From NCBI GenBank assembly GCA_016928495.1, contig JAFGKQ010000315.1, positions 1 through 8,707 of the forward strand: a stretch of 8,707 nucleotides of DNA, written 5' to 3'. Below, piece by piece: positions 4,205-8,707 of the stretch (position 1 is the stretch's first letter; each line of letters starts with the position of its first letter). Below the pieces are notes generated by a model, which had not been told where the DNA came from, searched no databases, and was given only the letters and a program-made list of their open reading frames with translations. Made by a program: the position numbers and the translations under genes. The DNA comes from Candidatus Fermentibacterales bacterium (GTDB lineage: Bacteria; Fermentibacterota; Fermentibacteria; Fermentibacterales; JAFGKQ01).

Positions 4205-4861
4205 GCCTCGAGCCCGCGGCCCCGGCTTCCTCCTGGCCAGGCTCCTTCCAGTGAGCTTCTCGGCCATCCTGACGAACCTCTCGTCTCCGAGCGGCCTGCC
4301 GGTTCTCGTGTGCCTGCGGATCAGGCTCTCCTCTTCCTCACCGAGCAACGCACCTCTGACCGCCTCGCGGGCAATCCCGAGATCACTGAGGCTTGCGCCC
4401 ACCAGAGGATCCTCATGACAGAGGCCTGCATAGTAGCGTGCGCTCGACCAGCGGTAGTCGGTGGGCCGTCGGACCAGTCCGGCCCGAACCGGGTTCTGAT
4501 GAGCGTATCGGATAGCACTGACGAGATGGGCGGTTCCGAGGGGTGTCGAGTAGAACCTCCCCTGGAACAGGTAGCCCCTGACCTGCTTTCTCTCGTTGAC
4601 GGTCGCCGTGTACGCCTTGTGGGCGTCGCCGATGCCACGGGCCAGGCTGTCAACAGCTTCCGGGATCACGACGAGATGTACATGGTTGCCCATGAGGCAC
4701 CAGCAGACGTACGAGAGGCCGTGAGCCGCCGCCGCCTTGCGGAGCGACCTGACATAGAAGAGCCTGTCGTCGTCCGAGTCGAAGATGCTCATCGACCTGA
4801 CCCCGCGCTGCGTCACGTGGTGGGGGATCCCGGGGAGCACCACTCGTGCAATCCTTGCCAT
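4181..4861 (-). CDS. REP-associated-type tyrosine (Y1, IS200-like) transposase
   Basis: The 226-residue HUH single-strand DNA transposase has the hallmarks of the Y1_Tnp/RAYT group. These are the N-terminal MARIARVVLPGIPHHVTQRG, the metal-binding HUH motif H60-V-H62 in LMGNHVHLVV, the FQGRF segment (99-103), and the helix IRYAHQNPVRAGL, where Y119 is the probable nucleophile with N123 four residues on. The C-terminal TGRPLGDERFVRMAEKL region of this subgroup is present, so the enzyme looks full-length and intact. Such enzymes cut and rejoin single-stranded DNA at hairpin-containing REP-like ends. The start is placed at the ATG at 4861 because family members begin with MAR...PG...HH. Upstream starts in frame (ATG 4879, TTG 4897) would add 6 or 12 unconserved residues. 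No strong Shine-Dalgarno is seen, which suggests low expression. The last residues and stop lie in the left inverted repeat. Confidence 0.92.
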   Translation of the reverse strand: MARIARVVLPGIPHHVTQRGVRSMSIFDSDDDRLFYVRSLRKAAAAHGLSYVCWCLMGNHVHLVVIPEAVDSLARGIGDAHKAYTATVNERKQVRGYLFQGRFYSTPLGTAHLVSAIRYAHQNPVRAGLVRRPTDYRWSSARYYAGLCHEDPLVGASLSDLGIAREAVRGALLGEEEESLIRRHTRTGRPLGDERFVRMAEKLTGRSLARRKPGPRARGEISDVSP

Positions 4862-4920
4862 AATGACTCTGTTACTCATTCGCGCAGCTGGTTTCAACCC
4901 CCCCCGTGCCAGTATCGTCG

Positions 4921-4952
4921 GAACGGATCAGGCCGGCCTGATCCTACCGTTC
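4921..4952. repeat. bulged palindrome inside the element, candidate transposase recognition hairpin
   Basis: The core 4925-4944 (ggatcaggccggcctgatcc) is a perfect 20-bp palindrome. A better hairpin pairs gaacgg (4921-4926) with ccgttc (4947-4952) and atcaggcc with ggcctgat, leaving a four-base bulge ccta (4943-4946). HUH/Y1 transposases recognise imperfect subterminal hairpins in single strands, and this lies between the transposase start and the right repeat, where such a site would be expected. Recognition is inferred. Confidence 0.5.
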
Positions 4953-4968
4953 TCGGGCAGAACGCTCC

Positions 4969-4973
4969 GGAGG
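4969..4973 (+). promoter_or_regulatory. Shine-Dalgarno for ygiQ, located inside the mobile element
   Basis: GGAGG lies nine bases before ATG 4983 and six before GTG 4980, both good spacings. Its last base is the first base of the right inverted repeat and the rest is just internal to it, so the ribosome binding site belongs to the element. It decides that translation of ygiQ starts at the tandem GTGATG in the repeat. Confidence 0.65.
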
Positions 4974-4996
4974 AGATAAGTGATGTGTCCCCATAA
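4973..4996 (+). repeat. right terminal inverted repeat of the transposase element, containing the ygiQ start codon
   Basis: Twenty-four bases beginning GAGATAAGTGATGTGTCCCC are the exact inverse of the left repeat. The tandem GTG (4980) and ATG (4983) within it begin the ygiQ reading frame, and the in-frame TAA at 4977-4979 blocks any start further upstream. Confidence 0.9.
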
Positions 4997-6695
4997 TTGG
5001 CTGCCGACGACACGGTCGGAGATGCGGGAGCTGGGCTGGGACTCCTGCGACGTCGTGCTGGTCAGCGGGGATGCCTACGTCGACCACCCATCGTTCGGCA
5101 CCGCGCTGATCGGTCGCTGGCTCGAGAGCCTGGGCTACAGGGTGGGCATCGTCCCGCAGCCCGATCCGGCGAGGGCCTCCGATTTCCTCGAGCTCGGGAG
5201 GCCGAGGCTGTTCGTCGGCGTCTCCTCCGGCGCCATGGACTCCATGGTGAACCACTACACGGCGCTGGGGAGGCGTCGGTCCGACGACGCCTACAGCGAG
5301 GGCGGGCGGGCCGGCCTGAGGCCGGACAGGGCGCTGCTGCGCTACGTGAATGCCGTCAAGGCCGCCATGCCCGGAGTCCCGGTGGTCATCGGGGGGATCG
5401 AGGCCAGCCTCAGGCGCCTCAGCCACTACGACTTCTGGTCAGACAGCGTGAGGAAATCGATCCTGCTCGACTCGAAAGCGGACATCCTCGTTTGCGGGAT
5501 GGGGGAGAAGGCGATCGCGGAGGTGGCCGCCAGGATCGGGAGCGGGGCTCCGCTGTTCGGCATCAGGGGGACGGCGGTCTACGCCGGGGAGGCCGGATTC
5601 GACTACTCGGACCCTGGCCTCGGTGAGTCCGCGATCCTCCCGTCCCACGAGCAGGTCAGCTCCTCCGGCAGCGAGTTCATGAAGATGACGAGGATGCTGG
5701 AGAGGGAGAGCAGCCCCTGGAACGCCAGGACGCTGCTGCAGTGCGCTGACAGCAGGATCGTGGCTGTCTTCCCACCTCAGCTTCCCATGTCCACGGAGGA
5801 GCTGGACCTGGTCTACGCTCTGCCCTTTGCCAGGATGCCGCACCCCCGCTACCGGGAGGGCGTGCCTGCGTTCGACATGATCTCCTGCTCCATAACCGCA
5901 GTGAGGGGATGCGCCGGGGGCTGCAGCTTCTGCGCGCTGGGCCTCCACCAGGGCAGGGACGTCCGGAGCAGGAGCGAGGAGTCCGTAGTCTCCGAGGCCC
6001 GCACCATAGCGGCCACGGACTATTTCGGGGGCACCATCACCGACGTAGGGGGGCCCACCGCCAACATGTACGGGCTGGGCTGCAGCAGTCCCGACGCCAT
6101 GATGAGCTGCCGGCGGCCGTCCTGCCTGTTTCCCTCGATCTGCCCCAGGTTCCGACGCGATCACTCGGCCTACGGGAGGCTGCTGGGGAGCGTGGCGGCA
6201 GTGAAGGGCGTCAGGCACGTGTTCGTGAGCAGCGGCATACGCCACGACCTGGCGGCCCTGGACCCGGCATTCTGCGAGCAACTGGCAAGGGAGCATGTCG
6301 GGGGCCATCTAAAGCTTGCCCCGGAGCACTCGTCCGGCAGGGTCCTGAAGCTGATGAGGAAGCCGGGCTGGGAGTGCTTCCGGGAGTTCAGGCGCGACTT
6401 CGAGAGGCGGAGCTTCGAGCTCGGCAGGGAGCAGTACGTGCTGCCCTACGTCATGGCCGGGTTTCCCGGCGGCAGCCAGGAGGACATGAAGAGGCTCTCT
6501 CAGGATCTCGTCAGGGAGGGGCTGCGCCCGGAGCAGGTCCAGCTATTCCTGCCTACGCCGATGACGCTTGCCACGGCGATGTACTACACGGGTCTCCATC
6601 CGGACACGGGGGAGAGGCTGTTCGTTGCCAGGGGCGACTCCCGGAGGAGACAACTCGAGGTGCTCAGGGCGCTTCCCCCAAGGCCTAGGACCTGA
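4983..6695 (+). CDS. ygiQ: YgiQ family (UPF0313) radical SAM protein
   Basis: The 570-residue protein matches YgiQ/UPF0313 along its length. The N-terminal cobalamin-binding-like region reads WLPTTRSEM..LGWDSCDVV then GDAYVDHPSFGTALIGRWLE (residues 6-50), followed by the hallmarks SSGAMDSMVNHYTA and GGIEASLRRLSHYDFWSD. The radical SAM [4Fe-4S] motif is C310-x3-C314-x2-C317 (RGCAGGCSFC). Next come the family segments DVGGPTANMYGLGC, a second cysteine group (SCRRPSCLFPSICP), SSGIRHD, HVGGHLKLAPEHSSGRVLKLMRKPG and MYYTG. The reaction and substrate of YgiQ proteins are not established. The frame stops soon after FVARGDSRRRQL, so the about 40 or more residues that follow in E. coli YgiQ (the DUF3362 region) are missing. 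The start (ATG 4983, or GTG 4980) and its Shine-Dalgarno lie in the mobile element's right end. ATG 5022 is rejected because it would remove the conserved WLPTT. The 3' end overlaps nrdG by 11 bases. Confidence 0.92.
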   Translation: MCPHNWLPTTRSEMRELGWDSCDVVLVSGDAYVDHPSFGTALIGRWLESLGYRVGIVPQPDPARASDFLELGRPRLFVGVSSGAMDSMVNHYTALGRRRSDDAYSEGGRAGLRPDRALLRYVNAVKAAMPGVPVVIGGIEASLRRLSHYDFWSDSVRKSILLDSKADILVCGMGEKAIAEVAARIGSGAPLFGIRGTAVYAGEAGFDYSDPGLGESAILPSHEQVSSSGSEFMKMTRMLERESSPWNARTLLQCADSRIVAVFPPQLPMSTEELDLVYALPFARMPHPRYREGVPAFDMISCSITAVRGCAGGCSFCALGLHQGRDVRSRSEESVVSEARTIAATDYFGGTITDVGGPTANMYGLGCSSPDAMMSCRRPSCLFPSICPRFRRDHSAYGRLLGSVAAVKGVRHVFVSSGIRHDLAALDPAFCEQLAREHVGGHLKLAPEHSSGRVLKLMRKPGWECFREFRRDFERRSFELGREQYVLPYVMAGFPGGSQEDMKRLSQDLVREGLRPEQVQLFLPTPMTLATAMYYTGLHPDTGERLFVARGDSRRRQLEVLRALPPRPRT

Positions 6696-7377
6696 CCTCC
6701 ACCTCCGCCACCCTGGCTCTCATGGCCTCCGCGCACTCCTCCAGGTAGGAGACCGGGTAGGGCACGACCTCCTCGTACTCCGGCGAGAGCGTCTTCTGCG
6801 GCCTGAACGGCTGCAGAACGTACCTCGCGACCGGGATCCCTATGGCATCGAGAACGTCCATGAGGCCATCTCTGTCGATCAGACCGGGCACCATGGTGGT
6901 GCGCAACTCGAAGGCGGGGAAGGAGCCGGCCGCCGCGATGCTCCGGAGCACGCGGTCGAAGACGTCGTGACCGCCCGTGGCTTCGGGATAGCGGTCGGGC
7001 GAGGCCTTCACGTCTATCGCGAGGTAGTCCACCAGTCCCTCGAGTGGCGGCATCCTCTCGGGGAGCGTGCCGTTCGTGTCAATCTTGATGGCCAACGGGG
7101 TCTGCTTCCTGAGGCTTGCCAGGAAGTCGGGCAGACCTTCCTGGATCAGGGGCTCCCCTCCGGTTACCGTGACTGCCTCCACGAAGCCCTGCCTCGCCCT
7201 GAGGCGCTCGATCACGCTGTCGGGGGAGATGGAGAGCTGATCCGCAAGAAGGTCCGGCCTGACCAGCTCCGGATTGTGGCAGAAGGGGCAGTAGAGGTTG
7301 CAGCCACCGAGGAAGATGACCGAGCAGACCTTCCCGGGGTACTCGATGAGGCTCGTGCCTACGAAGGAGCGGATCAA
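6685..7377 (-). CDS. nrdG: anaerobic ribonucleoside-triphosphate reductase activating protein (radical SAM activase)
   Basis: The 230-residue protein is a glycyl-radical-enzyme activase of the PflA-like NrdG2 type. It opens with the family N-terminus IRSFVGTSLIEYPGKVCSVIF. The CX3CX2C [4Fe-4S] motif of radical SAM activases follows at C26, C30 and C33 (GGCNLYCPFCHNPELV), then the SAM-contacting GGEP at 73-76 (VTVTGGEPL). Later come DTNGT, DYLAIDVKAS and ELRTTMVPGL. It reduces S-adenosylmethionine and abstracts hydrogen from the glycine of the reductase to form the glycyl radical. Here that glycine is encoded by the gene immediately upstream. The start is TTG at 7377, which overlaps the upstream stop as TTGA. 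No good Shine-Dalgarno is seen, so translation is probably coupled. The distance from this TTG to TSLIEYPGK fits the family and no ATG is nearby. The 3' end overlaps ygiQ. Confidence 0.93.
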   Translation of the reverse strand: MIRSFVGTSLIEYPGKVCSVIFLGGCNLYCPFCHNPELVRPDLLADQLSISPDSVIERLRARQGFVEAVTVTGGEPLIQEGLPDFLASLRKQTPLAIKIDTNGTLPERMPPLEGLVDYLAIDVKASPDRYPEATGGHDVFDRVLRSIAAAGSFPAFELRTTMVPGLIDRDGLMDVLDAIGIPVARYVLQPFRPQKTLSPEYEEVVPYPVSYLEECAEAMRARVAEVEVRS

Positions 7378-7580
7378 GAGCCGGGCTCAGCCTGCCTCGC
7401 GTCCTCCTCCACGGGCGGCCGGTCGTAGGAGACGTAGGCCCTCTCCCTGAACTCTTCCTGCTTGCCCTTGTTCCAGTCCTGCACGGGTCTGTAGTAGCCA
7501 ACGACCCTGGAGTAGATCTCCGTGCGGATAGCCCGGACCTGTCTCGGTCCCCGGGTAGGCTCCTCGCTGTCTGCGATCAT
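7374..7580 (-). CDS. separate glycyl-radical-domain small subunit of class III ribonucleotide reductase
   Basis: The 68-residue product contains TEIYSRVVGYYRPVQDWNKG and then KQEEFRERAYVSY (residues 20-52). This is the conserved C-terminal end of NrdD proteins, including the glycyl-radical loop RVxGY; G28 is the predicted radical site. In ordinary NrdD this segment is the last part of the same polypeptide, a few residues after the zinc-binding cysteines. Here it has its own ATG overlapping the nrdD stop (ATGA, 7577-7580), with GGAAGG six bases upstream, so it looks like a real start. Residues 1-19 (MIADSEEPTRGPRQVRAIR) and the acidic tail after 52 are unlike NrdD. Presumably it docks on the large subunit and is activated by NrdG; this is inference, modelled on how the small glycyl-radical protein YfiD/GrcA repairs PFL. 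A natural frameshift or sequence error is the alternative. Confidence 0.82.
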   Translation of the reverse strand: MIADSEEPTRGPRQVRAIRTEIYSRVVGYYRPVQDWNKGKQEEFRERAYVSYDRPPVEEDARQAEPGS

Positions 7581-8707
7581 TCCGGGCCTTCCACCCTTCC
7601 CACGTGGACGAACAGGTTTCCCTGTCCGTCATCGGCCGCCGGACTCAGCTCGCGGAAGCAGCCTTCCGGGAGCTCGGACTCCATCTCCACGATGTCCCCG
7701 TACTCCTCGATCTCCTCGTCCGTGTGCGGATAGGGGCAGACGGGGTGCTCGCCCGGGACGTAGCCGTGGACCGGGCATATCGAGAAGGTCGGAGTGAAAC
7801 TGAAATAGGGCAGCGAGAAACGCTCCACGATGCTCCTGGCCAGCTTCCTGACGACTCTCCAGTCGGTGATGGCCTCACCCAGGTAGATGTGGACCACCGT
7901 TCCTCCCGTGAACATCTGCTGTAGTGGATCCTGGTGCGCGAGCAGGTCGTAGATGTCCATCGCGCAGCTGACGGGAGGATGGACCGAGTTGGTGTAGTAG
8001 GGGTTGGAGACTCCCATCGCAGCGCAGTCGGGGAACCTCTCCCGGTCCAGCCTTGCGAGCCTGTAGGAGGCGCCCTCGGCGGGAGAGGCCTCGAGGTTGT
8101 AGAGGTTCCCCGTCTCCTCCTGGTAGCCGGACAGGCGTTCCCGCATGAACTCCAGCGTCCTCAGCGAGAGGTCCCTGGATGCCTCGTCCACGATCCCGTG
8201 CCCCGTGAGATTCACGCACGCCTCGTTCATCCCGACCAGGCCGACCGTCGAGAAATGGTTGGCCCAGTAGGTGCCGCCCGATGACCTGCGAATCCCGGAG
8301 AGGTAGTGCCTGGTGTAGGGGTAGAGGCCTGCGGCGGTCAGGTCTTCGATCATGGCCCTCTTCAGCTCCAGGGAGTCTCTGGCAATGTCCATCAGCTCTC
8401 CGAGGCGCTCGAAGAACCCGGCTTCGTTCCGCGACAGGTACGCGATCCGGGGGAGGTTGATCGTGACTACGCCGATGGAGCCTGTGAGAGGGTTGGAGCC
8501 GAACAGCCCGCCGCCCCGCTTCCTGAGCTCCCTGTTGTCGAGCCTGAGCCTGCAGCACATGCTCCGGGCGTCCTCGGGCCTCATGTCCGAGTTCACGAAG
8601 TTGCTGAAGTACGGGATGCCGTATTTTCCGGTCATCTCCCAGACAGGCTTGAGGTTCTCGTCGTCCCAGTCGAAGTCGCTGGTGAGGTTGTAGGTCGGGA
8701 TCGGGAA
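7577..8707 (-). CDS. nrdD: anaerobic ribonucleoside-triphosphate reductase large subunit, 5' end beyond the window and lacking the glycyl-radical loop
   Basis: The frame is open to the right edge; the 376 visible residues are the C-terminal part of class III ribonucleotide reductase, which reduces NTPs to dNTPs without oxygen. FPIPTYNLTSDFDWD is read at the edge, then KYGIPYFSNFVNSDM and the active-site region DARSMCCRLRLDNREL (visible residues 46-61), where one of the paired cysteines (C52 by position) is the likely thiyl-radical residue. FGSNPLTGSIGVVTINLPRI, GLVGMNEACVNLTG, NLEASPAEGASYRLARLD and FTGGTVVHIYLGE follow. The zinc-binding region reads CPVHGYVPGEHPVCPYPH, where most relatives have CPxC at the second pair. 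Then 48 residues of acidic, unfamiliar sequence end at a TGA overlapping the next gene. The glycyl-radical motif that should follow is absent and is found in that next gene. It is first in an overlapping operon with the small subunit and nrdG. Confidence 0.93.
   Translation of the reverse strand, partial: FPIPTYNLTSDFDWDDENLKPVWEMTGKYGIPYFSNFVNSDMRPEDARSMCCRLRLDNRELRKRGGGLFGSNPLTGSIGVVTINLPRIAYLSRNEAGFFERLGELMDIARDSLELKRAMIEDLTAAGLYPYTRHYLSGIRRSSGGTYWANHFSTVGLVGMNEACVNLTGHGIVDEASRDLSLRTLEFMRERLSGYQEETGNLYNLEASPAEGASYRLARLDRERFPDCAAMGVSNPYYTNSVHPPVSCAMDIYDLLAHQDPLQQMFTGGTVVHIYLGEAITDWRVVRKLARSIVERFSLPYFSFTPTFSICPVHGYVPGEHPVCPYPHTDEEIEEYGDIVEMESELPEGCFRELSPAADDGQGNLFVHVGRVEGPE

Follow-up and report, generated by a model that had tools for sequence, protein, structure and literature searches.

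The locus examined here raises the question of how a class III ribonucleotide reductase (NrdD) could operate when its glycyl-radical motif, RVxGY, is present at the locus but not in the polypeptide that forms the barrel. The window, meaning the whole stretch of DNA analysed (8,707 nucleotides), is an entire contig (G000:C90:1-8707) of a genome bin that is 81% complete, and for this reason the large chain lacks its 5′ end. The features of the locus are as follows.

7577-8707, minus strand: nrdD large chain, comprised of the barrel, finger loop and zinc region, truncated 5′ by the edge of the contig
8549-8560, minus strand: finger-loop motif MCCR, of the double-cysteine type, from the translation
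7724-7777, minus strand: predicted zinc-binding region CPVHGYVPGEHPVCPYPH (C-x2-H ... C-x3-H), complete within the large chain, from the translation
7587-7592, minus strand: GGAAGG, a Shine-Dalgarno-like site six bases 5′ of the small-gene ATG
7577-7580, minus strand: ATGA overlap of the small-chain start and the large-chain stop
7374-7580, minus strand: small chain of 68 amino acids, the NrdD glycyl-radical loop and tail as a gene of its own
7461-7508, minus strand: radical motif RVVGYYRPVQDWNKGK, nearly invariant among the aligned small chains
6685-7377, minus strand: nrdG activase, a radical SAM protein of the NrdG2 type (TIGR02495, E 7.4e-47, over the cut-off)

The large chain matches positions 202-536 of the 562 in the NRDD profile (PF13597; E 2.3e-99, over the cut-off), as well as NF006126/PRK08270 (E 1.1e-154). 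Its PRK08270 and TIGR02487 matches fall slightly under the full-length cut-offs because the contig ends within this copy, and it is homologous to the full-length large chains of relatives in the order. The double-cysteine class of NrdD has been described previously (PMC9669993), and the CPVHGYVPGEHPVCPYPH region would be expected to ligate zinc. The chain then ends 48 residues past CPYPH without a glycyl-radical motif. The small chain, in turn, matches NRDD positions 533-560 (E 8.6e-9), and the two chains jointly cover the C-terminal part of the profile once. Its radical Gly28 is encoded at 7497-7499, with 20 residues preceding EIYSRVVGY, and the TTG start of nrdG overlaps its stop codon (TTGA, from the sequence). 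A preliminary description had reported a large frame lacking RVxGY after the zinc region and a separate 68-codon gene with an ATGA start and its own GGAAGG; the NRDD match that stops at 536 bears out the first, the open reading frame and its coordinates the second, and the residue counts on either side of the junction are correct. Searched alone, the small chain has no match in PHROGs, its NCBIfam matches are all to full-length NrdD models, and its PDB relatives are limited to weak ribosomal matches, probably by chance. On the opposite strand, a YgiQ-family radical SAM protein (TIGR03904; 4980-6695, plus strand) is convergent with nrdG.

With high confidence, the locus is best explained as a two-chain class III ribonucleotide reductase, in which the small chain would be made from its own start and the normal NrdD chemistry retained; judged from the sequences, joint function of the two chains is likely. 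The most prosaic alternative, an error of sequencing or assembly or a decaying gene, draws on the incompleteness of the bin and on a divergent nrdD fragment that it also holds. This N-terminal fragment lies at a contig end (G000:C29:4453-5177; L050) and is similar to yet distinct from the window copy. It was considered as the missing half of that copy and rejected, as the overlapping ends differ (FDWEGEELRPLW vs FDWDDENLKPVW); it is either a second nrdD copy or a contig of another strain mixed into the bin. A search of this genome, at its 81% completeness, revealed no second nrdD that is complete, and decay of the window copy, which the preliminary description had named together with such a second gene as a reason for doubt, is very unlikely.

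Conservation contradicts the error or decay explanation, which is the least probable of those considered and can practically be dismissed. The NRDD profile search was extended to 41 further genomes of the order (Candidatus Fermentibacteria relatives; 42 with the window genome), and in each of the 41 a short match at about 533-560 stands apart from the main one, with a longer, stop-interrupted range in one genome. A separate small gene with its own ATG thus occurs in 42 of 42 genomes, preceded in nearly all the relatives by a purine-rich Shine-Dalgarno-like site, and MAGs of Candidatus Fermentibacteraceae, Aegiribacteria and Fermentibacteria display the same junctions. The close relatives with a continuous NrdD that would have spoken against a split were not encountered among these 42 genomes; no complete fused NrdD was found in those searched, leaving the small chain as the sole source of the loop there. 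Nor does any intron, intein or homing endonuclease lie at the break in the order, where the genes overlap or stand 1-2 bases apart. Together with single-contig genomes, named isolates and many other phyla discussed below, these observations uphold the earlier view of an evolved split rather than a simple frameshift. The same description had asked whether relatives share the split with the same ATGA junction. The split is conserved, but the small-gene ATG lies at -14, -8, -4, -1, +1 or +2 relative to the stop codon of the large gene, so that conservation concerns the presence of a separate start and not ATGA. L041/L100 is not a fused form: its small-gene frame is open far upstream, yet the large chain ends in another frame. 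In G041, nrdD is additionally broken inside the barrel, which looks like an assembly error.

Both chains are under purifying selection. Across 159 pairs within the order (dS <1.5), the median dN/dS of the small chain is 0.17 with no value >1, and a sample of 48 of those pairs gives 0.07 for the large chain. These values, along with a radical motif that is intact in every small chain of the order, argue against the notion that read-through or re-initiation yields mainly an inactive large chain with the small frame as a leftover. A class II ribonucleotide reductase is present in 39 of the 42 genomes, meaning that NrdD need not be essential in the order and could be dispensable as that notion requires, but the selection on both genes makes it highly improbable. 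Programmed ribosomal frameshifting that fuses the two frames into one NrdD would account for the overlap of the frames in most members of the order and is perhaps marginally less improbable than a leftover frame, although still very unlikely. The offset varies, gaps of +1 and +2 included, and two relative frames of large and small gene occur, whereas the ATG is universal and the Shine-Dalgarno-like site usual. Taken together, the separate gene in 42 of 42 genomes, its ATG, the varied offsets and frames and the dN/dS values make error, decay or a common programmed frameshift very unlikely.

The tails of the large chains are related across the order, with LP..S....LFL...KV in most. Shine-Dalgarno-like sequences (GGAAAGG, GAAAAGG or GGGAGG) are repeatedly seen at the codons for GKV, EKV or GRI, and the conservation of the tail may in part reflect the ribosome-binding site that serves the following gene. 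As a separate observation, the tail often contains Q-x-x-L-F (QGSLF, QPSLF or QGNLF; window 7577-7650 and relatives in the order), which resembles a sliding-clamp-binding motif and may serve as one, but could equally be a structural strand.

The split extends well beyond the order. In a sample of 385 genomes, NRDD matches occur in 171, of which 129 lie outside the order, and the loci examined were those where the main match ends early or contains a stop. A separate downstream radical-loop frame was found in at least 30 of the 129 non-order bacterial genomes, among the matches listed, including single-contig genomes (e.g. G137, G205, G344 and G142). One candidate, G051 (L049), was left out of this count, its barrel being broken elsewhere too, and L054, L055 and L086 were rejected as linked pairs, as the upstream frame is not NrdD. 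Named loci add Brevinematales, Thermodesulfobacteria (cultured Thermodesulfobacterium and Thermosulfurimonas species), Chloroflexota, Aminicenantes, Spirochaetes, Planctomycetes and Saganbacteria, and, among archaea, Micrarchaeota, Diapherotrites and Altiarchaeales, with fused NrdD in Clostridia, Latescibacteria, Brachyspira, Thermotogales and others; these loci were chosen by similarity to the small chain, and the ratio of split to fused among them is no measure of frequency. When 111 large chains are placed on a tree (a quick method, LG+G4), the split or fused state changes 17 times, counted without direction, and at least 14 of these changes are forced by starred branches, which indicates that the split arose or reverted repeatedly. 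Two loci in a distant NrdD lineage (L132 and L134; G270 and G130) bear a separate radical-loop frame, FERIRRITGYLVGTVDRFNNAKRAEVNDR, and the split is therefore not confined to the PRK08270-like group.

The forms that the split takes are diverse. Outside the order, the genes are separated by gaps of up to about 200 bases or share one reading frame that a stop codon interrupts. In L155 and L048 (G202 and G054, of the same family), a ThyX-like frame, named from sequence alone, intervenes between the two genes, making the small gene clearly independent there, and in an Aenigmatarchaeota genome the large and small genes are unlinked. Each of these arrangements further counts against frameshifting. 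The place of the cut also appears to differ. In the order it falls after the complete C-x2-H ... C-x3-H zinc region, whereas several archaeal small chains open with a cysteine shortly ahead of the motif (MSKCNAPCEVYSR, MTKCGKNTEVYSR), at the place equivalent to the last CG of the ribbon in fused archaeal NrdD; the archaeal zinc site may thus need both chains for its completion. The small chains of spirochaetes (L091, L101, L109, L115, L129, L139 and L141) extend into a CxxC-containing thioredoxin-like stretch (Pfam Thioredoxin_2, E 9.5e-4, below the cut-off), and it is possible that this type joins the radical cofactor and a reductant in one protein. The small gene of L048 is itself broken right after the RVVG codons, at the radical Gly, by an insert of about 0.85 kb (reverse complement, about 4860-5745) that holds a LAGLIDADG-like frame, after which the gene resumes with LRPVSQWN. 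The insert in the radical loop is probably a homing element, either an intron or an intein; Rfam gave no match for an intron.

A structural view of the pairing was obtained from a Brevinematales pair, outside the order of the window, in which the large and small genes share a frame with a TAA between them (L051). This TAA was read as Gln, and the single read-through chain was modelled with AlphaFold2, yielding a mean pLDDT of 86.9 and a pTM of 0.86, with block values of 53 for the linker and 77-86 for the radical loop. Aligned with Prevotella copri NrdD (8p2s_B), the model gives a Z of 35.6, with 556 residues matched at 2.5 A and the alignment reaching residue 735; for the T4 enzyme (1h78), Z is 33.7, with 484 residues matched at 2.3 A and the alignment reaching residue 587. 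The ends of the alignments to the T4 and T. maritima (4coj) enzymes place the small-chain Gly727 by register on Gly580 and Gly621, the known radical glycines (PMC4493059), a placement read from the alignment ranges. The modelled chain has the canonical NrdD fold, and its small-chain part occupies the place of the radical loop, a placement that the covalent linker and the natural fused NrdDs in the alignment favour.

For the window, a two-chain enzyme would then work as follows. The large chain would provide the ATP cone (seen in relatives), the barrel, the finger-loop cysteines and the zinc region, with the small chain contributing the glycyl-radical loop and the C-terminal tail. The overlap of large gene, small gene and nrdG is most simply read as one operon, from which the three would be co-transcribed, and translation of the small chain from its own start would be coupled at the ATGA here. 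The small chain would dock non-covalently on the large chain with its Gly opposite the finger-loop cysteine, NrdG would abstract the hydrogen of this Gly, and the assembled enzyme would presumably operate as an ordinary NrdD.

Small chains are also found alone, chiefly in viruses. Among the best 80 loci in IMG/VR (L186-L265), the examined stretch around the locus contains the small chain without a large one in 48 cases, a fused NrdD in 29 and a linked pair in 3. When 41 stand-alone records were searched whole, with two linked-pair records as positive controls, 40 had no large chain and the other had one about 17 kb away; some of the records are fragments. Terminase, a Mu-type transposition protein and endolysin occur near a few of these chains and support a phage origin of the regions. 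Several viral chains, L188, L215 and L254 among them, contain CxxC pairs of their own ahead of the loop, and CxxC pairs are also present in the 144-amino acid stand-alone radical-loop protein of the ANMV-1 virus (KP703175.1; L266:4680-5114). The ANMV-1 gene is annotated as anaerobic ribonucleoside triphosphate reductase, and the virus has been described as encoding an oxygen-sensitive ribonucleotide reductase (PMC4372165), but the record lacks a catalytic chain. Two other phage records contain full-length fused NrdD. A cellular counterpart is provided by Brevinematales DeMMO6_14, where another small chain stands alone (L054:3986-4168) in addition to the linked pair. Its neighbours are a minor-tail-protein match and a DNA methyltransferase of phage type, and it is possibly a prophage-borne spare.

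These occurrences invite an extension of the two-chain explanation, with no contradiction between them. Glycyl radical enzymes are vulnerable to oxygen, which cuts them at the radical Gly; for pyruvate formate-lyase (PFL), a spare part is known from phage T4 (PMC8683613). By analogy with GrcA/YfiD, an exchangeable subunit is plausible, and the small chain might be kept precisely because it is cut by oxygen and can be swapped, with phages re-arming or taking over the host NrdD. Beyond the viral records and their phage-type neighbours, ANMV-1 with its single protein and the Brevinematales genome with its second copy, this idea finds indirect support in the unlinked small genes and agrees with the published speculation that further enzymes of the glycyl radical type may have spare parts (PMC8683613). 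On the other hand, viral contigs may be fragments with the large chain elsewhere, and within the order of the window the small gene always adjoins the large, as for a fixed subunit. The spare-part extension is accordingly held tentatively, at somewhat below even chances. Its broadest form, put forward with the same reserve and rather less readily believed than doubted, is that a large share of anaerobes have a detachable NrdD glycyl-radical protein that could be renewed without remaking the enzyme, and that phages and archaeal viruses carry it alone to re-arm or take over the dNTP synthesis of the host.

A natural two-chain NrdD would allow the radical-bearing piece to be made, activated, labelled and swapped separately, and would open to experiment the access of NrdG to the buried Gly, the exit of the loop from the barrel and the repair of oxygen damage. 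Judging by the viral copies, a minimal auxiliary gene, in many cases <100 codons, could control the dNTP supply of the host. Scoring any nrdD match as a complete ribonucleotide reductase is misleading, as the case of ANMV-1 exemplifies.

With respect to known systems, the enzyme is a variant of class III ribonucleotide reductase in which the radical loop is not in the barrel polypeptide. It shares its family, barrel, finger loop, zinc region, motif and NrdG with the canonical NrdDs of T4, T. maritima, P. copri, S. thermophilus and E. coli; in all the solved NrdDs matched, however, the loop follows the zinc site in one chain, whereas here it has a separate gene. The literature searched on ribonucleotide reductase phylogeny, insertions, structures and phage genes yielded no account of an NrdD radical loop with a gene of its own; subscription papers were mostly absent from this body, and an earlier report may exist. 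GrcA/YfiD and the T4 protein Y06I are likewise small proteins with the glycyl-radical loop of a larger enzyme, known from phage too, and the small chain is itself a stand-alone glycyl-radical protein, although of the NrdD and not the PFL type: GrcA is homologous to the PFL C-terminus and serves as a spare beside a complete PFL, whereas the large chain here lacks the loop. The split class II enzyme of Pseudomonas aeruginosa, NrdJa/NrdJb (PMC4520616), likewise derives a ribonucleotide reductase catalytic polypeptide from two genes, but belongs to another class and has no glycyl radical. Phage nrdD genes split by introns, inteins or endonucleases (PMC3653736) are also in pieces, their breaks tied to mobile elements or to sporadic fragmentation in single phages; the split of the order, by contrast, falls between domains with no insertion and is fixed in the whole order.
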